64,000 nucleotides of DNA, from NCBI GenBank assembly GCA_013322215.1, contig JAAMEZ010000014.1:186001-250000 (forward strand), written 5' to 3'. Below, piece after piece: positions 36,517 to 50,650 of the stretch. The translations under genes were made by a program, and so were the position numbers. The notes below the pieces were generated by a model. The model was not told the DNA's origin. It saw only the letters and a list, made by a program, of their open reading frames with translations, and made no database searches. Positions within the stretch are counted from its first letter, which is position 1. Each line of letters starts with the position of its first letter. This stretch comes from Martinezella rhizogenes (lineage in GTDB: Bacteria; Pseudomonadota; Alphaproteobacteria; Rhizobiales; Rhizobiaceae).

Positions 36517-37809
36517 ATGAGCATCTTTGGTAGCATGAAAACGGCAGTTTCCGGCATGAACGCGCAGGCAAATAAGCTTAGCACCGTGTCGGACAACATC
36601 GCGAACGTCAATACAACGGGCTACAAGTCGGCGAGCACCAGCTTTTCGTCGTTGATCCTGCCCTCGGGCGGTGGCAGCTATAACTCCGGCAGCGTCGAAA
36701 CCAATGTCAGCTATTCGGTCTCGCAGCAGGGCGATACGGTCTCCACCTCGTCGAGCAGCGATCTCTCGATCCAGGGCGCCGGCTTCTTCGTCGTGCAGGG
36801 CGCCGACGGCAAGACCGTCCTGACCCGCGCAGGCGACTTTACACCGGATGCGAATGGTAACCTCGTCAACTCCGCTGGCTATACCCTGATGGGTTACTCC
36901 TATGCGTCGGGCGCGCCTGCCGTCGTCGTCAACGGCTTCGACGGCCTGGTGCCGATCAATGTCAATCAGAGCGGCCTCGCCAGCACGCCCTCAACGACGG
37001 GCACCTTCACGGGCAACCTCAATTCGAATGCAACGACCGTTACCGATTCATCGACGCTGCCAAGCGCCAATCCGACCTCGGTTACCTCCGATACCCAGAA
37101 GAGCTCGGTTGTTGCCTATGATAAGCTCGGCAACTCCGTCATGTATGACGTTTACTACACCAAGACCCAGTCTGCCGATTCCGCCACGGGCGCGACGGAT
37201 CAGTGGGAGGTTAGCGTCTATCGCAATGCCGATGCGAGCACCTCCGGCACCTCGTCATTCCCTTATGCGGATCCGCCGGGAGAAGTCGGTTCGACGACAT
37301 TGACATTTGATTCAAGCGGAAACCTGACGAGCGGTGGGACATTCGCCATCACCGATTCAACGACGGGCGGGTCCATCGCGATGGATCTGAGCGGAATGAC
37401 CCAGAAGGCCAGCGACTTCAGCTCGACGGGCTCGACCAACGGCCAGGCGGCAAGCCCCGTTACCGGCGTCACGATCGACAAGAGCGGCGTCGTCTATGCA
37501 AACTACAAGACCGGAGACCCGAAGGCGATCTATCAGATCCCGTTGGCAACCGTTGCAAGCCCGGACAAGCTCACGCTCTTGAGCGGCAACGTCTATCAGG
37601 CCAATTCGGATTCCGGCGTGACGGTCACGAGCTTCGCCAACAGCAACGGCCTGGGCTATATCCAGTCGAACTCGCTGGAAGCATCGAACGTCGACCTCGC
37701 CGGCCAGCTCACCGACATGATCCAGGCGCAGAAGAGCTACACGGCGAACTCCAAGGTCTTCCAGACGGGCTCCGACCTGCTGGACGTCCTGGTCAACCTT
37801 CAGCGCTGA
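36517..37809 (+). CDS. flgE: Flagellar hook protein FlgE-like, orphan copy, 430 aa
   Basis: The N-terminal rod/hook signature is complete: MKTAVSGMNAQANKLSTVSD and NIANVNTTGYKSAST. FlgE-type core QGAGFFVVQGADGKTVLTRAG follows, and the C-terminal Flg_bbr_C helix ends SNVDLAGQLTDMIQAQKSY and DLLDVLVNLQR. Length fits rhizobial hook proteins. Hook proteins leave the cell through the flagellar type III apparatus without a cleaved signal. No other flagellar gene is in the window, so it is either a displaced hook gene or a paralog for another filament. The middle domain is rich in Ser and Thr. A strong terminator follows, and the giant repeat gene is next. Confidence 0.92.
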   Translation: MSIFGSMKTAVSGMNAQANKLSTVSDNIANVNTTGYKSASTSFSSLILPSGGGSYNSGSVETNVSYSVSQQGDTVSTSSSSDLSIQGAGFFVVQGADGKTVLTRAGDFTPDANGNLVNSAGYTLMGYSYASGAPAVVVNGFDGLVPINVNQSGLASTPSTTGTFTGNLNSNATTVTDSSTLPSANPTSVTSDTQKSSVVAYDKLGNSVMYDVYYTKTQSADSATGATDQWEVSVYRNADASTSGTSSFPYADPPGEVGSTTLTFDSSGNLTSGGTFAITDSTTGGSIAMDLSGMTQKASDFSSTGSTNGQAASPVTGVTIDKSGVVYANYKTGDPKAIYQIPLATVASPDKLTLLSGNVYQANSDSGVTVTSFANSNGLGYIQSNSLEASNVDLAGQLTDMIQAQKSYTANSKVFQTGSDLLDVLVNLQR

Positions 37810-38099: not shown

Positions 38100-41000
38100 A
38101 TGACTTCGATCGTTTCATCCTTGAGCCTCACTCAGATCAGATCTCTTTCGACATCGGCTGTGGCAGCCTGGACCACGGAAGATGTGGCATCGCTGTCCAC
38201 CAAGCAGATCAGCGTTCTCACATCGGCGCAGATCGCCGCGCTGGATACTGAGGACGTGGAGGTTCTCACCTCCCAGCAGTTGAGTGCGATTTCGCAAAGC
38301 GCCATTCCGGGGCTCACGCTCGATCAATTGGCCGCCCTGACGACATCTGCGATCGAGAGCTTCAGTTCCGTGCAGATCACCGCGATCACGACACAGCAGC
38401 TCCAGGCTCTGACCACCGAACAGGCGGAGGCCCTGACGACGTCTCAGGTCCGGGTGTTGAGCTCATCGCAACTCTCTGCGCTTAGCGCCGCAGATCTGGC
38501 CACCTTTTCGACAGACGATATGGCTGCGATCAGCAGCAAGGCGATATCAGGCCTGTCGACCGCTGCAATGGCCGCGCTTTCGACTGATCAGGTCGCGGCA
38601 TTGAGCACCAGCAGCATTTCCAATCTGACGACGAGCCAGATTGCGGCCCTGGGTACCGCGCAAATTGCTGCCCTGACGACGGCGCAAATCGCCGCTCTCA
38701 AGACGACGCAGGTCGCGGCCATGCCCACGAGCGACGTAGCTGCGTTTTCAACTGCTCAGATTGCGGCCCTGACGGCCAGCGCGATTGCCAGCCTGAAGAC
38801 GGCGCAAGTCGCAGCCCTGAGCACTGCGCAAGCCGAGGCTCTCACCTCGAGCCAAGTCAAGGCCCTGGGTTCGGCGCAGCTATCCGTGCTGTCTGCGGGT
38901 AGTATCGCCACATTTTCGACGGATGACATGGCGGCGATTACCGCTGCTGCGGTCGCAGGCCTCTCGACAGCAACCATTTCTTCTCTCGCGACGAATCAAG
39001 TTGCCGCCTTGAGCACGGCCGCGATATCCGGCCTGACAACGGCCCAGATAGCTGCCTTGGGCACGGCGCAGATCGCCGCGATGACAACGGCACAAATCGC
39101 AGCGCTCACCGCGACGCAGATTGCGGTCATGAGCACGGGCGATGTTACGGCCCTCTCGTCCTCACAGGTCGCAGCCCTCAGCAAATCGGCCGTTACCGGC
39201 CTGACCACCATCCAGATCGCCGCACTGAGCACGGTGCAGATCGGCGCATTGACGACAAGCCAAATCAATTCGCTCAAGACGACGCAGACCGGGGTCTTGA
39301 GCACAAGCGATATCGCAGCGCTTTCAACCGCACAAATTGCTGCCTTCAGCGTAAGCGGCATCGCCGGGCTGACAACGAGCCAGATCAGCGTGATGACCAC
39401 AGCGCAGATTGCCGCTCTGACGACGGCACAGGTCGCAGCGCTGACTTCGACCCAGATATCCTCATTGAGTACGGACGATATCGCCGCATTCTCGACCGCC
39501 AGCATCGCGGCAATCACCAGCAAGGCCATATCGGGTCTTGGCACGACCGCCATCGCTGCCTTGTCGACAGCGCAAGTTGCCGCGTTAAGCGCGGCAGGGG
39601 TTGCCGGGTTGAGCACTGCCCAGATTGCAGTTCTGGGCACGGCAAAAACGAGCGTGCTGACCACGTCACAGATCGCGGCCCTGGGCTCAAGCCAAATTGC
39701 CGTGTTGGGTACGGATGTTGTTGCGGCGCTTTCGACGGGACAGATCGCAGCTTTGAAAGCAGCCACCGTTGCCGGTTTGACGACAGATCAGATCGCGGCG
39801 CTAAGCACGCAGCAAGTGGAGGCGCTCACCAGCGCTCAAATTGCGGCGCTGAGTTCGACGCAATTTTCGGCCCTCGGCGCGGACGAAATTGCCACATTCT
39901 CGACGACGGAAATTGCGGCCATTACCAGCAAGGCCGTGGCGGGATTAGGTACGGGGGTCATCGCCTCCCTTTCGACCGATCAGATTGCCGCCCTTAGCTC
40001 CAGCGCGGTCGCGGGCCTGACGACGGCCCAGGTCGCGGCACTTTCGAGCACCCAGATTTCGGGCCTTGCGACGCGTGCCGTCGCGAGCTTGACAACGAGC
40101 CAAGTGTCAAGCCTGAGTTCGCAACAGGTCGCAGCCTTGACGACCACCCAGATCAGCGTGCTGAAAACAGCCCAGATTGCGGCCATCAGCACGAACGACA
40201 TTGCAGCCCTTTCAACTGCGCAAATTGGCGCACTGACCACGACCGCGATCACAGGGCTGACGACGGGCCAGATCACCGCGCTCACGACAACGCAGGTCGA
40301 AGCGCTGTCGTCGAGCCAGCTCAAAATTTTGAGTTCCGCTCAACTTGCCGCGCTGGGTTCCGATGATGTGGCAACTTTCACGACAGACGAGATCGCCGCG
40401 CTGTCCAGCAAGTCGATAGGTGGCCTCACAACCAGCGTCATCGCCTCCCTTTCGAGCGCGCAGCTCGAGGCCCTGACCACGAGTGCCATCACCGGCCTGA
40501 CGACCACCCAGATATCGACGCTGGGTACTGCTCAGCTCGCAAGCCTGACGACCGGCCAGATTGCGGCATTGAGCTCGACACAAATGACGGCGCTGACGGC
40601 AAACGACGTGGCGGCCCTGTCGACGGCCGACTTGGCCGCGATAGCCACCAAGGCGATTGCAGGCTTGAGCACCGGTGCCGTCGCCGGTCTCTCGACGGCG
40701 CAGATTGCGGCCCTGGCCACGAGCACGCTCGCGAGCCTGACGACCACTCAGGTCGCAACCTTGAGCACTGCGCAGCTCGCGGCGCTGAGCACGACACAGG
40801 TCGCGAGCCTGACGTCGAGCCAGGTTGCAGCCCTCAGCACGGGCACCGTTACATCCCTTACCGCCAGCCAGATTGCAGCCCTCAGCACATCCGGCATCAC
40901 CGGTCTCACGACAGATCAGATCGCCGCTCTGAGCACGGCGCAAACGCAGGCATTGACGACGGCCCAGATCGCCAAATTGAGCTCGACACAGGTCTCCGCT

Positions 41001-44000
41001 CTCGGAACGGACGACATTGCGACCTTTACGACCGACGAAATCGCCGCACTTTCCAGCAAGGCGGTAACAGGGTTGAGCACCGGCGTCATCTCGACGCTCT
41101 CGACGCAGCAAATCGCCTCCTTGAGTGCCGTCGGGATCGCCGGCTTGACGACGACCCAGATCACCGCGCTCAATACGGCGCAGATTGCCGCCCTGCCGGC
41201 ATCGTGGATGACGGCTCTCAGCGCAACTCAGATCGCAGCCCTCGACACCAATGTCATCGCCGCTCTGTCCACCGCACAGGTCGCCGCGATAAGCACCTCC
41301 GGGATTACCGGCCTGACGACCGACCAGGTCAATGCGCTGAACACCACGCAAGTCTCAGCCCTGACAACAAATCAGGTCGCGGCTCTGAAGACCGCTCAGC
41401 TCTCCGCACTCGGGACCGATGATGTCGCCGCCCTTTCCGTCGCCGATATCGCCGTGATCACCTCGACCGCGATGTCGGGGCTGTCGACCGATGCGATTGC
41501 CGCACTGACGACCGCCCAGATCGCTGCCTTGAGCACGGCAGGCATTGCAGGCCTCAGCACCGCGCAGATCGATGCATTAAGCGGTAGCCAGGTCGATGCG
41601 TTGCTCACCAATCAGATCGCGGCCCTCAGCCAATCGCAAATCGCGACCATAGATGCGGATATCTTCGCCTCTCTCTCCACAGCCCAAATCGCCGCGTTCA
41701 GCACCTCTGGAGTGGCCGGCTTGACAACGGGGCAGATGGCCGCACTGAGCACGGCACAGGCCGAAGCACTGACCACCGCGCAGGTCAAGGCCCTCAGCTC
41801 AGCCCAGCTCGGCGCGCTGAGTGCCGATGACATAGCAACCTTCTCGACCGCCGATATCGCAGCGATTTCAAACAAGGCGGTATCGGGTCTCAGCACATCC
41901 GTCATTAGTTCATTGTCCACGGATCAGATCGCAGCGCTCGGCACGACCACCGTCGCGGGCCTGACGACCGATCAGGTCGCTGCTTTGAGCACGGCACAGG
42001 TGGCCGTCTTGACCACGACCCGAATTGCCGCGCTGAGCTCATCGCAAGTGGCAGCGCTCGGCACAGGAAGCATCGCTTCGCTTACGACCGCCCAGATGGC
42101 TGCGCTCAGCACCGCCGGAATCTCCGGACTGAGCACCGATCAAGTCAACGTTCTGAGCAGTGCGCAACTTGCCGCTTTGACAACGACGCAGATCGCAGCA
42201 TTGAGTTCAGCTCAGCTTAGCGTCCTTAGCTCGGGCGACGTAACGGCCCTCTCGACCGCGGATATTGCCGCCATCGGTTCGAGTGCCATTTCCGGTCTGT
42301 CCACGGCAGCCTTGGCGGCCTTCTCGACCGCGCAGATCGCCGCACTTAGCCCGACCGGCATCCTTGGCATAAGCACCGATCAGATCAGTGCCCTCAACAG
42401 CGGCCAGATAGATGTGTTGTCGACCAAGCAGATCGCAACCCTGAGCTCGGCGCAGATCGCGGTTTTGGACCCGACCATCGTCGCGACCCTTTCGACGGCG
42501 CAGATTGCGGCCCTCGGCAGCTCGGCCATTGCAGGCCTGACGACCGCGCAGATCTCGGCTCTCAACACTAACCAGACGGAAGCCCTGACATCGGCTCAGG
42601 TCGCGGCTCTGAGTTCCAAGCAGATCGGCAGCCTGGGTGCCGCCGACATCGCTACCTTCTCGACCAAAGATATTTCCGCGATCGGCGCCGCCGCCATCTC
42701 CGGCTTGTCGACGGATGCCATTGCGGCCTTGTCGACGGCCCAGATCGCAGCCCTCAGCACATCGGGCATTACCGGGCTGACCACCCAGCAGATTGCCGCC
42801 TTGAGCACCGGTCAGCTCCAGGCACTGACGACAGCACAGGTCGCGGCACTGAGTTCCGCGCAGCTCTCCGTATTGACGACAAATGATGTAGCTGCCCTGT
42901 CGACCAAGAGCATTGCGGCGCTCACCTCCGCCGCCATATCGGGCGTGCCCACGACAGCAATCGCCGCTTTGTCGACGAGCCAGGTGGCGGCCCTCAGTAC
43001 TTCGGGCATTGCTGGCCTTACCACGAAGCAGATCGCTGCGCTCAGCACCAGCCAGGCCGAGGCGTTGACGACAGCACAGGTCGCGGCCCTGAACTCGACC
43101 CAGCTTTCTGCGCTGACGACAGACGACATAGCCGTATTTTCCACGCAGGACATAGCCGCCATCGGCTCGAGCGCCATATCGGGCCTGTCCACGGGCGCGA
43201 TAGCGGCATTGACGACAAATCAGATCGCAGCCCTCAGCACGCTTGGGATCAGCGGTCTGTCGACCAAACAGATCGCAGTCTTGAATACCGCTCAGGTCCA
43301 TGCCTTGAGCAGCAAGCAGGTTGCTGCGCTAAGCTCGGCGCAGGTTTCCGCCTTGAGCACAACGGACATAGCCTCGCTTTCGACGGCGCAGATCGCCGCC
43401 CTCAGCTCATCCGGCACTGTCGGACTGACGAGCCTGCAGATTGCAGCCTTGAGCACGGGCCAGGTGCAAGCCCTGACGACGACACAGATCAGCGTCCTTG
43501 GCTCCAAGCAGGTAACCGCGCTGACGACCGCCGACATAAACGCAATGTCGACGGCGCAGATTGCTGCTTTGAGCGGTCTTGGCATTGCGGGTCTGACGAG
43601 TGCCCAGATCGCGGTCTTGAATACTGCCCAGGCCGAGGCCCTGACCTCGGCTCAAGTCGCTGCTCTCAGTTCGAGCCAGATTGCGACGCTGAACCCTGCC
43701 AATCTGCAGACATTCTCGACTTCCGATATCGCAGCCATCAGTTCGAGCGCCATCGCCGGCCTGTCGACGGCGACCATCGCTGCCTTTTCTGGGGACCAGA
43801 TCGCGGCAATCGGCACCGCCGGCATTGCGGGTCTCACCACCCTGCAGATTTCGGCTCTCGGCACCAACCAGGTCGCGGCACTTACGACAGCTCAGATCAG
43901 CACACTTGGCTCCAAGCAGATTTCGGCACTCACGACAGCCGATATTGCGGCCCTGTCGACCGCACAAATCGCCGCGCTCAGCACCGGCGGGATCGCCGGC

Positions 44001-45992
44001 CTGACAACGGCACAGCTGGCGGCTCTCAACGTCGACCAGGCCGAAGCTCTGACAACGGCGCAGATCGGTGTGTTGAGCTCGACCCAGATCGCAGCGCTCA
44101 GCACTGATGATCTGGACGCCTTTTCCACCGCCGATATCGCCGCCATCAGTTCGAGTGCCATATCGGGCCTATCGACGGCGACGATCGCGGGATTCTCGAC
44201 CGATCAGATCGCAGCGCTCAGCGCAGCCGGCATTGCAGGCCTGACAACATCGCAGATAGCAACCCTGAATACCGGGCAATTGGAGGCCTTGACCACTGCT
44301 CAGGTTGCAGCGCTCACTTCCAAGCAGATCACGGTACTCGGCACGAGCGGCATCGAAGCCCTCTCCACCAACCAGATCGCAGCGCTGAGCACAAGCGGGA
44401 TTGCCGGACTGACGACAGATCAGATTGCGGCACTCAGCACCGACCAGGCCGAGGCCTTGACGCCGACCCAGATCGGGACCTTGACCTCGAAGCAGATCGC
44501 CACTTTCGGGACAGACGATCTCGCGACCTTCTCGACCGCGGATATGGCAGCCATCGGCTCGCTTGCGATGTCCGCCCTGTCAACCGCTGCAATCGCAGCC
44601 TTGTCGACAGAGCAGATTGCCGCTTTGAGCACGGCCGGCATCGCGGGCCTCACCACCAGCCAGATGGCGGCACTCAGCACGGACCAGGCCGAAGCCCTGA
44701 CACCCGCCCAGGTCGGAGCGCTCAGCTCCGCGCAGATTGCCGCTCTCGGAACCGACGATCTTCAGACCTTCTCAAGCGCGGACATCGCGGCAATCAGCTC
44801 GAGCGCCATATCGGGCCTGACGACTGCCATTGTCGCGGCACTGTCAACGGCCCAGATTACGTCTTTGGGCACGGGCGGCATCGCCGGATTGACGACGGCG
44901 CAGATCGCCGTTCTCAGCACCGATCAAGTCGAGGCTTTGACGGCAGCGCAAGTCGGAGCACTTGGCTCAAAGCAGATTGCAGTCCTTAGCACCGGCGATA
45001 TCGCCGCCTTGTCGACAAGCCAGGTCGCGGCGTTGAGCACGGCGGGCGTGGCAGGTTTGAGCAGCACCCAGGTCGCCGCAATGAGCGTCGATCAGATCGC
45101 AGCATTTTCGACGGCCCAGATCGCGGCCTTGAGTTCCGCCGGCATTGCGGGCCTCAGCTCGGCCGATCTGGCAACTTTCTCCACTTCCGATATCGCAGCG
45201 ATCAGTTCCAGCTCGGTCCAGGGCCTGTCGACCGACTTTATCGCCTCCCTCTCCACCGCCCAGATTGCGGCACTCGGGACGGGCAGCATTGCCGGCCTCA
45301 GCAGTACACAGATCGGGGTGCTCAGCATTGAGCAGTTCGAAGCACTTACGACCACCCAGATCGCAGCGTTGAGTTCCGCCGGCCTGGCGGGACTGACCAC
45401 GGCGGATCTGACGACCCTTTCCACCGCCGAGCTATCCGTGATCAATTCGGACGCGATCCAGGGACTGCCCACCACTGTCGTCGCAGCCCTTACCAGCGAC
45501 CAGATCGCCGTCCTGACGACCTCTCAGATCGCCTCATTGAGCTATGGCCAGATCGCGGCACTGAGCACGGCACAAATCGCTGCTCTTTCGACATCGCAGA
45601 TCGGCGCCTTGAACGCCCTTCAGGTCGCGGCACTGGATACGGACGATATTTCCGTCTTCACGACCGATGACATTGCCGCATTGAGCTCCGGAGCGGTCGC
45701 CGGATTGACCACACGGGTCATCGCGTCGCTGACGACGGCGCAGGCCGAGGCTCTTGCGCCATCCCAGGTCAGCGAGCTGACTTCGGCGCAGGTCGCGGCC
45801 CTGACGACACAGGAGCTCTCGACCTTCTCGACCAAGGATATCTCAGCTTTTAGCTCGAATGGCGTAGCGGGCCTGTCGACGCAGGATATTGCAAGCCTTT
45901 CCAGCACGCAGTTGCTCGCATTGATGCGTTCGCAGATGGCATATCTGAATTCGGATCAAATCGCGGCGGTCATCTCAAGCTATGTGACGTGA
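38100..45992 (+). CDS. Giant octapeptide-repeat protein, 2630 aa
   Basis: After four residues (MTSI) the whole protein is 328 consecutive octapeptides plus a final Val-Thr; I parsed every one and found no insertion or deletion. The pattern is [IVLM]-x-[AGV]-[LFI]-[ST]-[ST]-x-[QDEAG], for example IAALSTAQ, IAGLTTDQ, AEALTTAQ. There is no Cys and only two Trp. Each octad has about two to three Ser/Thr. No Sec signal, membrane helix, RTX motif or type I secretion tail is seen. Certain octads (ATFSTxD, then AAISSxA, then xGLST) recur every 7 or 10 octads, most often 17 (10+7). GGAAAGAG precedes the ATG. I know of no assigned function. The gene lies between a hook-like gene and an OGT-type glycosyltransferase gene, so a glycosylated structural or surface protein is my inference. 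Confidence 0.9.
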   Translation: MTSIVSSLSLTQIRSLSTSAVAAWTTEDVASLSTKQISVLTSAQIAALDTEDVEVLTSQQLSAISQSAIPGLTLDQLAALTTSAIESFSSVQITAITTQQLQALTTEQAEALTTSQVRVLSSSQLSALSAADLATFSTDDMAAISSKAISGLSTAAMAALSTDQVAALSTSSISNLTTSQIAALGTAQIAALTTAQIAALKTTQVAAMPTSDVAAFSTAQIAALTASAIASLKTAQVAALSTAQAEALTSSQVKALGSAQLSVLSAGSIATFSTDDMAAITAAAVAGLSTATISSLATNQVAALSTAAISGLTTAQIAALGTAQIAAMTTAQIAALTATQIAVMSTGDVTALSSSQVAALSKSAVTGLTTIQIAALSTVQIGALTTSQINSLKTTQTGVLSTSDIAALSTAQIAAFSVSGIAGLTTSQISVMTTAQIAALTTAQVAALTSTQISSLSTDDIAAFSTASIAAITSKAISGLGTTAIAALSTAQVAALSAAGVAGLSTAQIAVLGTAKTSVLTTSQIAALGSSQIAVLGTDVVAALSTGQIAALKAATVAGLTTDQIAALSTQQVEALTSAQIAALSSTQFSALGADEIATFSTTEIAAITSKAVAGLGTGVIASLSTDQIAALSSSAVAGLTTAQVAALSSTQISGLATRAVASLTTSQVSSLSSQQVAALTTTQISVLKTAQIAAISTNDIAALSTAQIGALTTTAITGLTTGQITALTTTQVEALSSSQLKILSSAQLAALGSDDVATFTTDEIAALSSKSIGGLTTSVIASLSSAQLEALTTSAITGLTTTQISTLGTAQLASLTTGQIAALSSTQMTALTANDVAALSTADLAAIATKAIAGLSTGAVAGLSTAQIAALATSTLASLTTTQVATLSTAQLAALSTTQVASLTSSQVAALSTGTVTSLTASQIAALSTSGITGLTTDQIAALSTAQTQALTTAQIAKLSSTQVSALGTDDIATFTTDEIAALSSKAVTGLSTGVISTLSTQQIASLSAVGIAGLTTTQITALNTAQIAALPASWMTALSATQIAALDTNVIAALSTAQVAAISTSGITGLTTDQVNALNTTQVSALTTNQVAALKTAQLSALGTDDVAALSVADIAVITSTAMSGLSTDAIAALTTAQIAALSTAGIAGLSTAQIDALSGSQVDALLTNQIAALSQSQIATIDADIFASLSTAQIAAFSTSGVAGLTTGQMAALSTAQAEALTTAQVKALSSAQLGALSADDIATFSTADIAAISNKAVSGLSTSVISSLSTDQIAALGTTTVAGLTTDQVAALSTAQVAVLTTTRIAALSSSQVAALGTGSIASLTTAQMAALSTAGISGLSTDQVNVLSSAQLAALTTTQIAALSSAQLSVLSSGDVTALSTADIAAIGSSAISGLSTAALAAFSTAQIAALSPTGILGISTDQISALNSGQIDVLSTKQIATLSSAQIAVLDPTIVATLSTAQIAALGSSAIAGLTTAQISALNTNQTEALTSAQVAALSSKQIGSLGAADIATFSTKDISAIGAAAISGLSTDAIAALSTAQIAALSTSGITGLTTQQIAALSTGQLQALTTAQVAALSSAQLSVLTTNDVAALSTKSIAALTSAAISGVPTTAIAALSTSQVAALSTSGIAGLTTKQIAALSTSQAEALTTAQVAALNSTQLSALTTDDIAVFSTQDIAAIGSSAISGLSTGAIAALTTNQIAALSTLGISGLSTKQIAVLNTAQVHALSSKQVAALSSAQVSALSTTDIASLSTAQIAALSSSGTVGLTSLQIAALSTGQVQALTTTQISVLGSKQVTALTTADINAMSTAQIAALSGLGIAGLTSAQIAVLNTAQAEALTSAQVAALSSSQIATLNPANLQTFSTSDIAAISSSAIAGLSTATIAAFSGDQIAAIGTAGIAGLTTLQISALGTNQVAALTTAQISTLGSKQISALTTADIAALSTAQIAALSTGGIAGLTTAQLAALNVDQAEALTTAQIGVLSSTQIAALSTDDLDAFSTADIAAISSSAISGLSTATIAGFSTDQIAALSAAGIAGLTTSQIATLNTGQLEALTTAQVAALTSKQITVLGTSGIEALSTNQIAALSTSGIAGLTTDQIAALSTDQAEALTPTQIGTLTSKQIATFGTDDLATFSTADMAAIGSLAMSALSTAAIAALSTEQIAALSTAGIAGLTTSQMAALSTDQAEALTPAQVGALSSAQIAALGTDDLQTFSSADIAAISSSAISGLTTAIVAALSTAQITSLGTGGIAGLTTAQIAVLSTDQVEALTAAQVGALGSKQIAVLSTGDIAALSTSQVAALSTAGVAGLSSTQVAAMSVDQIAAFSTAQIAALSSAGIAGLSSADLATFSTSDIAAISSSSVQGLSTDFIASLSTAQIAALGTGSIAGLSSTQIGVLSIEQFEALTTTQIAALSSAGLAGLTTADLTTLSTAELSVINSDAIQGLPTTVVAALTSDQIAVLTTSQIASLSYGQIAALSTAQIAALSTSQIGALNALQVAALDTDDISVFTTDDIAALSSGAVAGLTTRVIASLTTAQAEALAPSQVSELTSAQVAALTTQELSTFSTKDISAFSSNGVAGLSTQDIASLSSTQLLALMRSQMAYLNSDQIAAVISSYVT
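38148..45986 (+). repeat. 24-bp coding repeat array with 168/240-bp higher-order modules
   Basis: Each octapeptide corresponds to 24 bases, about 326 copies within this interval. Anchor octads occur at octad numbers 17, 34, 58, 75, 95, 105, 122, 139, 156, 173, 190, 200, 210, 234, 251, 268, 278, 295, 305, 315 and 322. Spacings are therefore 17, 24, 20, 10 or 7 octads (408, 576, 480, 240 or 168 bp). Copies are strongly diverged at synonymous positions, so this is not a recent slippage array. Confidence 0.9.
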
Positions 45993-46370
45993 AACAGCAC
46001 AACGGTTTTGCGACAGCGATAAGCGGGATCAAGGGCTAGGGCGCAGGAAGCGAACCCTCGAGATCGCGATATGCCCGCAGCATTGTTGGATCGAATCACG
46101 CAACGGAGCGCCCGGCGACAGGCGATTTCAGAGGTTATCCGCGCTATTGCGGGCAGCGCCCGTGGCATATCACAGTCGCTGGTGGTCCCGGAGACCCGCG
46201 CAGTCGTTTGCAATTCGCTTTCGTGCGTTTGAAAGCTGTTGATTGCCGGCGCGCAACAGCCGATTCCCGCGGCGGGCTGATGACATGCCGACGGCAACGA
46301 AGCACAGTCGACGCATCGGCAGCCATTATGGAAATGGTTGCGTTGCCTGCCGCCAGTTTATGGAATGCCC
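45993..46370. other. 378-base gap between the giant repeat gene and the glycosyltransferase gene
   Basis: No convincing gene, terminator or promoter consensus is seen. Short minus-strand frames (for example 45980-46297) have no ribosome-binding site and no recognisable sequence. The gap is long enough for a promoter of the glycosyltransferase gene, but cotranscription with the giant gene is not excluded. Confidence 0.5.
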
Positions 46371-48419
46371 ATGGTCACCAATGATGCTTCAGTCACCAGC
46401 CCGGTCCTGCCGCTTGCCGGCATTCTGGACCTGGCGCGTTCGCAGCGCCTCTCCTTCAACGACCTGTTCCAATATGCCGAAACGCGAAGTGCGGCTGGGC
46501 AGAAGCTGGAGGCGGCGGAGGCCTACAAGGTCTGGATTGCATTCAACGACGGCCACCCTTACCTGCATCTCGTTTACTTCAACTATTCGGTCACGCTGCG
46601 ACAACTCGGAGACATAGCCGGCTCCATCCAGGCGCTGCGCGCGTGTCTGAAACTCGATCCACAATTCGGCCCGGCCCACATCAATCTCGGACGAGCATTG
46701 GAAGATAGCGGCGTTGCGGCGCATGCCATCGTGCAATGGCGAAGCTTCGTCGAGATGACGGCTGAAAGCACTCCAGACAAGCTTGCGCATCGCCTCATGG
46801 CGCTTCAGCATATTGGCCGCGTCATGGAAAATGCGGGGCTCTTGGATGATGCCGAAGCGGCGCTATGGCAAGCCATCGAACTACGACCCGACAAGAGCGA
46901 GGCAGGCCAACATTGGAGCGCCCTGCGCCAGCGTCAGTGCAAATGGCCCATTCTTGCGACATCCGACCACGTGTCCACTCGTCAGCTCCTCGATTCCATG
47001 TCGCCGCTGACGCTTGCCTGCTATTCCGACGATCCTCTATTTCAACTTGCAAGAGCCTACCAGTACAACAAATCCTTCGTTGGCCGCCCCGACATAAGCG
47101 GATTTCCTCGCAAGGCGCCGCGGAAAAAATCGGGAACCGCTCAGCGGCTTCGCATCGGCTACGTATCATCGGATCTGCGAGATCACGCGGTCGGCTTCGC
47201 ATTGAGGGAAGTGCTGGAGCTGCACGACAAGCAAAGCGTCGAAATCTACGCCTATTACTGCAGCGAACCAGTGGAACAAGATGCCACGCAAATGCGCATG
47301 AAAGCCGTCGTCGACTGCTGGCGCGATATCGCTGCGCTCAGTGATCAGGATGCGGCACGGCAGATCGCCAATGATGACATCGATATCCTCGTCGACGTCA
47401 ATGGCTATACCAAGCACGCCCGAACAAAAATCTTTGCATATCGACCGGCCCCCGTCATCGTCAATTTCTGCGGCTATCCGGGCACGATGGGCAGCCCATT
47501 TCATCACTATATCATCGCGGACGAACACGTCATTCCCCCGGAAAATGAGATCTTCTACTCCGAGAAGGTCCGGAGGATCCCTTGCACCCAGCCTATTGAT
47601 CGCAAGAGAGCGATCGCCGAGAAGCCGACTCGCCTCGAAGCGGGGCTGCCGGAAGGCGCCTTCGTCTTCGCGTGCTTCAACGGGATGCAGAAGATCACGA
47701 AGGAGACGTTTGCACAGTGGATGGAAATTCTCGCGGCAACATCCGACAGCGTGTTGTGGCTGTTGAGCGGCAGCGACGATGTCGACGCGCGTCTGCGCCA
47801 GCTTGCAGCAAATGCCGACGTCGCGCCGGAGCGTCTCATCTTTGCGCCCAAGGCACCAAACGCCAAACACCTTGCCAGGATTGGCCTTGCCGATCTTTTC
47901 CTCGACACATTTCCCTATGGAGCACACTCGACCGCAGCCGATGCCCTGACCATGGGCCTGCCTGTTCTCACCATTCCGGGCAAGAGCTTTGCAGCACGCT
48001 TCTGCCATAGCATCGTTGCAGCCGCCGGCGCAGCACAGCTGATTTGCTCAGACCCGCAAGACTACGTTCAAAAGGCAATCGGATTTGCAAAGGATCCAAC
48101 AAGCCTGAAGAGAATAAGAACGTCCATGCAGGAACAACGGGACACAAGCGTGTTGCGTGATATTCCGGCCCTCGTTCAGCGCCTGGAGACGCTGTTCTGG
48201 CAAATGCAACGAGAAGCGGAGCAGGGAGACACTCCTCAGCCAGACTTGCGCAACCTCGATGTCTATTACGAGATTGGCGTTGGATTGGTGCAAGACAACA
48301 TCGCCTTTTGTGACGATAGCACTTACAGGCGCGAATACGGAAAGCGGCTTGCCGAATGGCATGATTATTCTCCATTGCAGCGAGACGGTCGCCTCTGGCC
48401 CAATGGCACGGCAATCTAG
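46371..48419 (+). CDS. TPR plus GT41 glycosyltransferase (OGT/SPINDLY type), 682 aa
   Basis: The N-terminal 200 residues contain TPR helices (QLGDIAGSIQALRACLKLDP, QFGPAHINLGRALEDSG, AGLLDDAEAALWQAIELRPD). The catalytic part matches O-GlcNAc transferases: RIGYVSSDLRDHAVGFALRE with the conserved His, ILVDVNGYTKHARTKIFAYR, the FCGYPGTMGSPFHHY loop, FNGMQKITKETFAQWMEIL with the UDP-binding Lys, and FPYGAHSTAADALTMGLPV plus PGKSFAARF. GT41 enzymes transfer a sugar from a UDP-sugar to Ser/Thr hydroxyls of proteins in the cytoplasm. The neighbouring giant Ser/Thr-rich protein and hook-like protein are the natural candidate acceptors. Start: ATG at 46371 has GGA at six bases; ATG at 46365 is also possible. 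Confidence 0.9.
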   Translation: MVTNDASVTSPVLPLAGILDLARSQRLSFNDLFQYAETRSAAGQKLEAAEAYKVWIAFNDGHPYLHLVYFNYSVTLRQLGDIAGSIQALRACLKLDPQFGPAHINLGRALEDSGVAAHAIVQWRSFVEMTAESTPDKLAHRLMALQHIGRVMENAGLLDDAEAALWQAIELRPDKSEAGQHWSALRQRQCKWPILATSDHVSTRQLLDSMSPLTLACYSDDPLFQLARAYQYNKSFVGRPDISGFPRKAPRKKSGTAQRLRIGYVSSDLRDHAVGFALREVLELHDKQSVEIYAYYCSEPVEQDATQMRMKAVVDCWRDIAALSDQDAARQIANDDIDILVDVNGYTKHARTKIFAYRPAPVIVNFCGYPGTMGSPFHHYIIADEHVIPPENEIFYSEKVRRIPCTQPIDRKRAIAEKPTRLEAGLPEGAFVFACFNGMQKITKETFAQWMEILAATSDSVLWLLSGSDDVDARLRQLAANADVAPERLIFAPKAPNAKHLARIGLADLFLDTFPYGAHSTAADALTMGLPVLTIPGKSFAARFCHSIVAAAGAAQLICSDPQDYVQKAIGFAKDPTSLKRIRTSMQEQRDTSVLRDIPALVQRLETLFWQMQREAEQGDTPQPDLRNLDVYYEIGVGLVQDNIAFCDDSTYRREYGKRLAEWHDYSPLQRDGRLWPNGTAI

Positions 48420-48626
48420 GCATTCCTGATGGATTTCTTTTACGCCAAGCGTCCAAACGCGCCTAACGCCGAGGTCGCACATGGTTGTTACCACACACTC
48501 ATGTGCATCGGCGAGCGTAGTTGGCGCTTGGCTCGCGCGTAAATTTCAGGATCGGACCGAGCGAGAAGAATTTGGCGGATACAGCGGTCGGATAGAACAG
48601 ACTTCCATAATTCTCAGCGCCTTGCC

Positions 48627-49628
48627 TTATGCGCGGCCAGCTGCTTTCCGGTTGATGAAACTCAGGGCGAGCACGGCGAAGATCAGCGTTCCCGTACCGA
48701 CTTGCTGCCAATAGAAATTCAAATCGGTCAGCAGCAGCCCATTGGCAACAATACTGAGCAGGAGCACGCCCAGGACGGTGCCAGCGACGTTCGGCCGCCC
48801 GAGCGGGCTGAGCGTCGTACCGATGAAAGTTGCACCGATGGCATTCAGCAGGAATGCATTGCCGGAAGACGGGATATAGACGGTGACGGTCGCAGTCAGA
48901 ATCAGGCCAGCGACGGCTGCGATCAACCCGACCAGTACGAAGGTAGCCGCTATATAGGCGGGAGCCGCAATGCCGGAATAGCGTACGACGCCCGGCTGGA
49001 TACCGATTGACAGAATGATGCGGCCGAACCGCGTACGGGCAAAAATAACCGCAGCGGCTGTGATGATGACGATGGCGGCTGCAAGCGGCACAGGGAACCC
49101 TTCGATCGTGCCGTGGCCAAGGAAACGGAAAGCCTCCGGTATGCCGTTCGGCGGCAGATAGACGGGATTGCCGCCATTGGTCAGCAGTTGCTGGATGCTG
49201 CGGCCGATGAACAATGTTCCAAGCGTTGCGAGGAACGGGGAGACGCCTATCCCTGATATCAACAGCGCATTGAATGCTCCGACAAGCATCCCGGCCGCCA
49301 ACCCGGCCAATGCTGCAATCGCCACCGGCTGCCCGGCAAGGACAAGCGAAACAAAAGCGAAGCTCGCGAAATCCATTGCCGTTCCCACCGAAAGATCGAT
49401 GCCGCCCGAGGCGACGGCAAAGGTCATGGCGATGGAGACGATGGCAAGCAGCGTGAAATTGTTGACCAGGATGCTCTGCAGGTTGGCGAACGTCAGGAAT
49501 GTCGGCGTGATCAGGGAAAAGACGGCAAACACGGCAATCAGGGCCAGGATCAGCCCGTAGCGCACCAAGCCGCCGATGATGAGGCGCGGCAAGCCAGTCG
49601 CGGCGGGTGAAGAGGTGTGGAGCGACAT
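48627..49628 (-). CDS. Sugar ABC transporter permease (RbsC type), 333 aa
   Basis: Ten hydrophobic segments with TFAVASGGIDLSVGTAMDFA, the RbsC family signature, and SGIGVSPFLATLGTLFIGR. It would form the channel with the other permease of the operon. The start is two bases after the stop of the partner gene. It ends the ribose-type operon; no sugar kinase or dehydrogenase follows, so the substrate is not indicated. The 207-base gap to the glycosyltransferase gene holds nothing I can support. Confidence 0.92.
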   Translation of the reverse strand: MSLHTSSPAATGLPRLIIGGLVRYGLILALIAVFAVFSLITPTFLTFANLQSILVNNFTLLAIVSIAMTFAVASGGIDLSVGTAMDFASFAFVSLVLAGQPVAIAALAGLAAGMLVGAFNALLISGIGVSPFLATLGTLFIGRSIQQLLTNGGNPVYLPPNGIPEAFRFLGHGTIEGFPVPLAAAIVIITAAAVIFARTRFGRIILSIGIQPGVVRYSGIAAPAYIAATFVLVGLIAAVAGLILTATVTVYIPSSGNAFLLNAIGATFIGTTLSPLGRPNVAGTVLGVLLLSIVANGLLLTDLNFYWQQVGTGTLIFAVLALSFINRKAAGRA

Positions 49629-49630
49629 GT

Positions 49631-50650
49631 TCAGACCTCCTGCCGGCGCAATAAGGTGGTTGCGGAGACGACGATGAGAATGAGCAGGCCCTGAACTCCA
49701 CTCACCAATGTGCTCGAAATGTTGAGCAGCTGGAAACCATTGGTGAGGAAGCCGACCAGTAGGGCTGAAAGCAGTGTTCCGGTGACGGTCGGAACCAGCC
49801 GGCGTGAAAAGACCGAGCCGAGCAAAGCGGTGACCACAACAGGCAGCAGCATCTCGCCGGAACCCGTCGTGCTGCCACTCAGGTAGGAAACCGAGAGGAT
49901 GCCGGCGATGCCACCGGAGAAGCCGCTGGCAACGAATGCACCGGCGAGCAGGCGGCGAAGCGGCAGGCCGGCGGCGCGTGCAGCATCCGGAAACTCGCCG
50001 ACAGCATAAAGGCGCAGACCAAGCGGCGTATATTGCACGATCGCCGTTGCGATCGCGGTGAAGCCGATAAGCACATAGGCAAGGACAGGCATGCCGAATG
50101 GATCCGCAGCCGAAAGCATCGAGAGAAAGGGCGTGGAAGCCGGGAGGACGGTATTTCCCGTCAGCACCAGTTCCAGACCGGCGACGATGTTCATGACGGC
50201 AAGCGTGGCGAGCAGCGGCACGATACCGGCATAGACGATAGCAATGGCATTGACCGCACCGATGAGGGTCCCTGTCAGGATCGATGCGGCGATCGCCGTG
50301 ACGTCGCCATAACCGAGTTGTATCAAGCTGGCATAGACGGCGGCGCTAAGGCCCATATTGGCGGCGAGCGACAGGTCGATGCCGCCGGTAACGACGTTGG
50401 AGCCGCCGGCGATCAGGACGATTGTCAGTCCGATCGCGAGCACGCCGGAGATGGCGGATTGGCCGAGCACATTGCCGATGTTGCCGACGCTCAGGAAGTA
50501 AGGTGCGGTCAGTGAAAAGACGATCAGAATGGCCGCAAAGGCGATGAGCGATCCGAAGCGCAGTGCCGCGGCCGCGATATTGCCGGTCGATCGGTCAGGC
50601 CGCTCCGCGGTCGAAAATCCCGACGGTGCAAATTCCGCTTCAGCCGACAT
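49631..50650 (-). CDS. Sugar ABC transporter permease (RbsC type), 339 aa
   Basis: The second RbsC-type permease, with ISGVLAIGLTIVLIAGGSNVVTGGIDLSLAANMGL-type signature (short form: VTGGIDLSLAANMG) and YAGIVPLLATLAVMNIVAG. I choose the ATG at 50650 because it begins MSAEAE near the ATPase stop; the start overlaps the ATPase gene by 11 bases. Two different permeases in one operon imply a heterodimer, as in some autoinducer-2 and sugar transporters. Confidence 0.92.
   Translation of the reverse strand: MSAEAEFAPSGFSTAERPDRSTGNIAAAALRFGSLIAFAAILIVFSLTAPYFLSVGNIGNVLGQSAISGVLAIGLTIVLIAGGSNVVTGGIDLSLAANMGLSAAVYASLIQLGYGDVTAIAASILTGTLIGAVNAIAIVYAGIVPLLATLAVMNIVAGLELVLTGNTVLPASTPFLSMLSAADPFGMPVLAYVLIGFTAIATAIVQYTPLGLRLYAVGEFPDAARAAGLPLRRLLAGAFVASGFSGGIAGILSVSYLSGSTTGSGEMLLPVVVTALLGSVFSRRLVPTVTGTLLSALLVGFLTNGFQLLNISSTLVSGVQGLLILIVVSATTLLRRQEV

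Follow-up and report, generated by a model that had tools for sequence, protein, structure and literature searches.

A rhizobial protein made of 328 octapeptides is a predicted alpha-helical screw and the candidate substrate of a GT41 glycosyltransferase

What kind of protein consists of hundreds of octapeptides and almost nothing else? The question is raised by a gene in a 64,000-nucleotide stretch of Martinezella rhizogenes DNA (contig JAAMEZ010000014.1, positions 186,001 to 250,000), which is referred to here as the window and comes from a genome of 8.16 Mb.

38100..45992, plus strand: ALTTAQ octad-repeat protein of 2630 amino acids and 328 octads (from translation, Pfam, octad parsing, and a period scan)

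This open reading frame (ORF) translates without internal stops into a prefix MTSI, 328 octads, and a suffix VT, and the octad consensus is [IV]-A-A-L-[ST]-[ST]-x-Q. Translation and parsing bear out the original prediction that the length is 4 + 328 x 8 + 2 residues, that the phase never slips, and that the protein has no Cys and two Trp; A, T, S, L, I, and Q together account for about four fifths of it. All 328 octads score best in the parsed frame when compared with the seven other frames, and no window of three octads favors another frame, which is a consistency check because the scoring matrix was derived from the protein itself.

We propose that the octad protein is probably an exported, O-glycosylated rod with the shape of an alpha-helical screw; its fold is predicted, and its glycosylation, export, and role are what we infer. 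That it folds as a thin alpha-helical screw with one short helix per octad is very likely, given the models described below.

The dimensions of the screw can be read from the repeats. Octads resemble each other most at lags of, among others, 7, 10, 17, 27, 34, 44, 61, and 78, all of which fall near multiples of 3.39 octads. The octad-composition spectrum peaks at the same period (refined to 3.388 octads, or 27.1 residues) with a power of 7.5, compared with a maximum of 1.93 in 200 shuffles, and the next peaks, at 2.44 and 8.73 octads, are the aliased second and third harmonics. Residues are placed accordingly around the cycle: Gly occupies octad position 3 at 78% and 63% in two neighboring tenths of a turn, and Glu occupies position 2 at 37% in another tenth. 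Among 28 proteins scanned, including that of the window, the top period in the range of about 3.0–3.8 octads always falls at 3.31–3.44; this peak exceeds all shuffles in 27 proteins, ranks first in 23, and is among the top three in all 28. The one protein in which it does not exceed all shuffles is L062:7370, a frame of 42 octads; in five proteins a different period is stronger, and two of these (L095 and L097) peak at 2.00 octads. As the sequence reads, one turn is about three and a half octads, or 27 residues, so that 328 octads make 96.8 turns. The octad had been taken for one rung of a continuous structure; this does not hold, because the sequence period is 3.39 octads. L095 (6672-12611) and L097 (8167-13005) are built from near-identical blocks of 24 octads (192 residues), about seven turns each.

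Structure prediction of fragments, an experiment that the original prediction had proposed, returned a regular solenoid with high confidence and no predicted disorder, in line with the continuous regular structure that it expected.

42648..43871, plus strand: stretch of 408 amino acids (51 octads) folded with AlphaFold2 (predicted local distance difference test, pLDDT, 95.3; predicted template modeling score, pTM, 0.84)
45027..45989, plus strand: C-terminal 321 amino acids folded with AlphaFold2 (pLDDT 94.7, pTM 0.85)
45903..45986, plus strand: predicted C-terminal cap with two longer helices, residues 2602-2615 and 2618-2629 (from model and alignment)

The 408-residue model, which is based on an alignment of 40 of 111 stretches (a MAFFT version with all 111 spread to 1040 columns with octad-shifted rows), has 49 helices of 4–6 residues across its 51 octads and no strand. 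A beta-solenoid of the pentapeptide or hexapeptide type was rejected, as neither model has a strand of three or more residues. The C-terminal 28 residues are predicted to form two helices that end the solenoid and carry a conserved end motif, [VI]-[IV]-[SA]-x-Y, a small correction to the earlier statement that there is no identifiable domain at either end.

Armadillo repeats have 42 residues. Fourteen fold-search rows named designed armadillo align 27.6–29.2 residues of the octad model per 42-residue repeat; armadillo proteins have a whole number of repeats and 42 residues per turn, whereas the octad protein has 27 residues and 3.39 octads. The best Foldseek row is mesothelin (E 9.3e-4). Excerpts of PMC10035497 describe it as a right-handed solenoid whose 24 short helices are arranged in nine layers and whose repeats are 27–37 residues long, and to that extent the octad model may resemble it. 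Since sampling once per octad cannot separate 3.39 from its mirror alias, we infer from the fold matches alone that the screw is right-handed.

The lengths of the relatives follow the same geometry. Counted from cap to cap, the octad numbers of rhizobial relatives show a periodicity of 3.375 octads (R 0.77, a statistic that ignores kinship), and none of 1000 random sets was as strong at any period scanned, the strongest reaching R = 0.64 on a grid twice as coarse. The test began with 70 candidates, 11 of which could not be anchored; 12 of the 59 anchored proteins were off frame, the window protein among them through a slip of the pattern, leaving 47 in-frame proteins with 26 distinct counts from 62 to 373. 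An earlier version with a poorer anchor placed 34 of 53 proteins in frame and gave R 0.82 from 22 distinct counts. The length of octad proteins thus tends to change by whole turns, a behavior required of a continuous screw whose two caps or faces are fixed.

Comparison with close relatives shows that the ORF is a real gene whose protein is under constraint. The complete plasmid NZ_CP023000.1 of Rhizobium sp. 11515TR, the closest record in the plasmid collection, retains the stretch from the flagellar hook gene FlgE through the octad gene to a GT41 glycosyltransferase gene, and its octad protein has 2630 residues and is 91.9% identical without a gap. Four further relatives (L053, L100, L102, and L170) have octad proteins of 2631 residues that are 66–72% identical, again with no internal gap, at a synonymous divergence (dS) of 1.25–1.39 and a non-synonymous divergence (dN) of 0.18–0.25. 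Exactly 328 octads are thus kept in six rhizobia, the window included, and because the lengths match ungapped in 11515TR and these four relatives, frame breaks or assembly collapse are unlikely. The original prediction also held that an indel of even one residue would be harmful. The register is indeed constrained, as 693 of 744 internal gaps relative to proteins more than 50% identical are multiples of 8 residues, but several relatives of about 2300–2540 residues tolerate 1 to 6 register slips.

The repeat itself is known. The octad protein matches Pfam family PF20080 (ALTTAQ repeat) with 1570.2 bits in 95 stretches, above the curated cut-off of 26.4 bits, and the family name spells the octad core. 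A search of 5.8 billion proteins, in which the 7987 candidates with the most shared words were scored, found 224 homologues. PF20080 is a 38-residue sequence profile, and most of the 120 homologues listed are multidomain proteins with further Pfam domains, whereas the octad protein consists of octads alone; among these domains are RTX, Calx-beta, haemagglutinin, FG-GAP, and Ig-like modules. The family occurs in 16 of 61 genomes in a sample of relatives, 6 of 289 in a sample of the class, and 28 of 398 in a sample of the phylum, the genome of the window being counted in each. A PDB sequence search matched HeliScrew4 (9zem, E 5.9e-16 over 102 residues), a 120-residue chain with the same octad (e.g., ALTPEQIAAL). 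Compared by sequence, HeliScrew4 has about 15 octads rather than 328, and the residue that follows its capping Ser/Thr is mostly Pro, in contrast to the Ser/Thr of the rhizobial protein; the chain is absent among the fold-search matches listed. The original prediction knew of no characterized protein with this design, but PF20080 describes the repeat and 9zem carries the motif. We found no paper on ALTTAQ, PF20080, or HeliScrew among open-licence PMC papers. Pfam rows for Sigma70_r4_2, LRR_EndoS, and Gp5_trimer_C on the repeat (two of them above cut-offs) and LRR rows from the PDB sequence search were set aside as composition matches.

A candidate partner lies directly downstream.

46338..48419, plus strand: glycosyltransferase with TPR and GT41 domains (from Pfam, PDB sequence matches, and alignment)

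The ORF is listed from a TTG, but translation more likely begins at an in-frame ATG, at 46365 or 46371. The protein matches PF13844 (246 bits) and TPR_8 (above cut-off), human OGT (chain 7yeh, E 5.5e-80), and XcOGT (2jlb, E 3.9e-76), and thus has the TPR plus GT41 architecture of the OGT family. H283 and K452 are invariant in 14 of 14 aligned GT41s and pair with a His and a Lys of human OGT; we take them to be the catalytic residues.

The pairing recurs. We collected the 80 best GT41 loci from a profile scan of GTDB species genomes, titled nearly all as Rhizobiaceae genera or Rhizobiales isolates. An ALTTAQ frame adjoins the GT41 gene (within 1.6 kb) in 72 of them, upstream on the same strand in 31 and on the opposite strand in 29, and downstream on the same strand in six and on the opposite strand in six; the stored DNA ends within about a dozen of these frames. 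Eight loci have no ALTTAQ gene beside GT41 (L107, L109, L112, L117, L127, L157 on a short contig, L171, and L172). In more distant families, the distance between GT41 and an ALTTAQ frame is at most about 0.2 kb in four genomes (G046, G263, G666, and G684) and about 4 kb in two (G235 and G331), and in six genomes of family f206 it is some 2–11 kb. A uridine diphosphate (UDP)-galactopyranose mutase was matched in 61 of the 80 loci (Pfam-confirmed in L100 and L118) and an epimerase was found in nine. Clustering the flanks of 14 loci that lack a GT41 neighbor gave no gene family in more than three of them.

The repeats next to GT41 have a distinctive residue pattern. When only positions 1, 3, and 4 are used to call octads, the 3126 octads of 15 GT41-linked proteins have Ser/Thr at position 6 in 84% of cases and Pro in 1%; for the 15521 octads from 88 frames of the 80 loci, the figures are 81% and 2%. 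The corresponding values in 120 other homologues, which were not sorted by GT41 linkage, are 31% and 26% (6664 octads). Unlinked proteins of other lineages have Ser/Thr fractions of 0.32 (L096), 0.29 (L098), 0.28 (L099, 18 octads), 0.23 (G704), 0.21 (G666 C1), and 0.00 (G519, 21 octads), and one genome (G235) has 0.95 in its GT41-linked protein and 0.32 in a protein on another contig. In four relatives, Ser/Thr is retained at 92–95% of position-6 sites, 87–89% of position-5 sites, and 42–58% of position-7 sites. As position 5 alone would cap the helix, the conservation of a second Ser/Thr suggests that position 6 is a sugar acceptor.

Type I secretion genes occur at some loci of the family. 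We found matches to a type I ABC transporter and HlyD in 10 of 126 loci (L095, L097, L182, L187, L189, L190, L198, L200, L101, and L105); the 126 include at least three places twice (L058/L121, L059/L136, and L064/L140) and one in two pieces (L181/L182). Pfam confirms the type I genes in L095, L097, and L182, the last of which has an outer membrane efflux protein after them. At the C terminus, where a type I substrate would bear an uncleaved secretion signal, the octad protein has the conserved end motif described above. The genome of the window has three PrtD-type ABC genes above cut-off, on other contigs.

These observations can be arranged into a working model. The chain of 328 octads would form a single thin right-handed screw with 3.39 short helices (27 residues) per turn and about 97 turns, in which the Ser/Thr at position 5 caps each short helix and that at position 6 faces outward on the rod as the acceptor for a sugar. 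In the cytoplasm, the soluble GT41 enzyme would read the rod through its TPR domain and glycosylate position 6, and UDP-galactofuranose from the mutase that is encoded near GT41 in most relatives could be the source of an additional or a different sugar. The glycosylated rod would then reach the cell surface through a type I exporter. Assuming about 1 nm per turn, the product would be a stiff rod of roughly 90–100 nm with some hundreds of sugars, which may serve as a surface spacer, a coat, or an adhesion fiber. A precedent is FlmG of Caulobacter, described in excerpts of PMC7591256 as a soluble TPR-glycosyltransferase that modifies flagellins before their export. The GT41 neighbor would resemble it as a soluble TPR enzyme with an exported filament protein as its proposed target; FlmG differs, according to the same excerpts, in placing pseudaminic acid on flagellins, whereas here the sugar genes point to galactofuranose and one giant rod is the proposed target. 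The most complete version of this model, in which 3.39 repeats per turn, length evolution by whole turns, a dedicated OGT-type enzyme, a galactofuranose branch, and a type I exporter together produce 100-nm surface rods with hundreds of sugars in several proteobacterial families, is more tentative, and we give it slightly less than an even chance.

Several results weigh against the link between the rod and the enzyme. The profile was built from ALTTAQ-linked GT41s, which biases the 80 loci to one clade. Of the eight GT41 loci that lack a nearby ALTTAQ gene, seven have a mutase, so the enzyme GT41 may act on other substrates, and the only mutase of the window's genome is on another contig, none adjoining the octad gene. 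The residue pattern also extends beyond the linked loci: ten proteins from the genus of the window, with no GT41 in the 14.8–20 kb fetched, have a position-6 Ser/Thr fraction of 0.71 (six of their nine genomes hold a linked ALTTAQ-GT41 pair elsewhere), L093 has 0.66 away from GT41, and eight f206 loci have 0.53–0.92 with no GT41 on the contig among the matches listed, in genomes that are GT41-rich. Conversely, the linked protein L186 (G666 C2) has only 0.35. Because high values also occur away from GT41, the second Ser/Thr is tied to the presence of GT41 in the genome no less than to its presence at the locus.

The screw might be exported without sugars, with GT41 acting on flagellin or another protein and the genes merely sharing a locus for surface structures. 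The seven loci that combine GT41 and mutase without an ALTTAQ neighbor fit this explanation, as do the flagellin targets reported for FlmG in the excerpts of PMC7591256, which also count against glycosylation of the rod, the staining of Rhizobium leguminosarum flagellins as glycoproteins (PMC2936354, in excerpt), and flagellin-like genes, identified by eye, in 6 of the 80 GT41 loci. It does not account for the ALTTAQ gene staying beside GT41 in nine tenths of the loci while their relative orientation differs, or for the extra Ser/Thr of linked proteins and its retention in the four relatives, and we regard an unglycosylated rod as unlikely.

A protein confined to the cell interior, where it would serve as an extended scaffold or a ruler and bear intracellular sugars as in eukaryotic O-GlcNAc, is less probable still. 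It would agree with the N terminus (MTSIVSSLSL...), in which we see no signal peptide by eye, and with the absence of type I exporter genes beside the octad gene within the window, which also weighs against export. The constant 328 octads of the six rhizobia would suit a ruler. Yet octad number ranges from 62 to 373 in other relatives and, because it varies so widely, length is not a fixed ruler; the type I exporter matches at related loci and the exoprotein domains on many listed homologues likewise argue against an intracellular scaffold.

The next gene upstream raised the possibility of a flagellar part, such as a ruler of hook length.

36517..37809, plus strand: flagellar hook protein FlgE, not counted as part of the system (from Pfam/NCBIfam)

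FlgE is on the same strand as the octad gene, likewise in Rhizobium sp. 11515TR, but beyond that plasmid it was matched in only one of the 126 related loci (L152, which is also the one match among the 80 nearest GT41 loci), and the flagellar link, which we consider very improbable, was dropped. A second FlgE_D2 match is on another contig of the window's genome. A disordered, low-complexity repeat or an assembly artefact without defined structure, for which the dominance of six amino acids could speak, is hardly credible given a pLDDT of 95 in the AlphaFold2 models, a dN much smaller than dS, a constant octad count even where dS exceeds 1.2, and the same length in a complete, independent plasmid.

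The repeat, GT41, and mutase families were known before; the fractional turn and the quantized lengths are new here, and the papers and listings that our literature search reached gave no description of the octad-GT41 pair, of a fractional turn read from sequence, or of quantized lengths. If the glycosylated, exported screw is correct, it would assign a function to a widespread repeat family for which we found a Pfam name but no publication. Bacteria would then also offer an OGT whose substrate is a single giant, regular protein, a test bed for how TPR-GT41 enzymes read shape. The design of proteins that display sugars at regular intervals could likewise take the rod as a natural template. The turn of 27.1 residues, together with lengths in whole turns, is an evolutionary footprint of superhelix geometry that is readable from sequence.

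Some ALTTAQ-like proteins (P0049, P0058, P0094, and others, one named from Buttiauxella) carry a calpain-type peptidase domain (PF00648), and their octads may be a shaft for other machines.

Downstream of GT41, a 400-residue ORF (48499-49701, minus strand) has no Pfam or NCBIfam match; Rhizobium sp. 11515TR has a 73.5% identical stretch at the same place, and sugar ABC transporter genes come after the ORF. A gene cluster from 20 GT41 loci appeared to consist of antisense frames (one member had no Pfam match) and was excluded. In 20 of the 80 loci (e.g., L149:12132-13478), GT41 is directly followed by a member of a family that is about 440 residues long, matches Methyltransf_FA (PF12248), and may be a further sugar-handling partner. 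Five f206 genomes (G402, G422, G436, G447, and G457) have open frames of about 2400–3800 residues with several tandem GT41 matches each; GT41 domains thus appear to be fused into arrays, in genomes that are also rich in ALTTAQ matches. A plasmid record of Rhizobium daejeonense labels the pair "glycosyl transferase" and "hypothetical protein".
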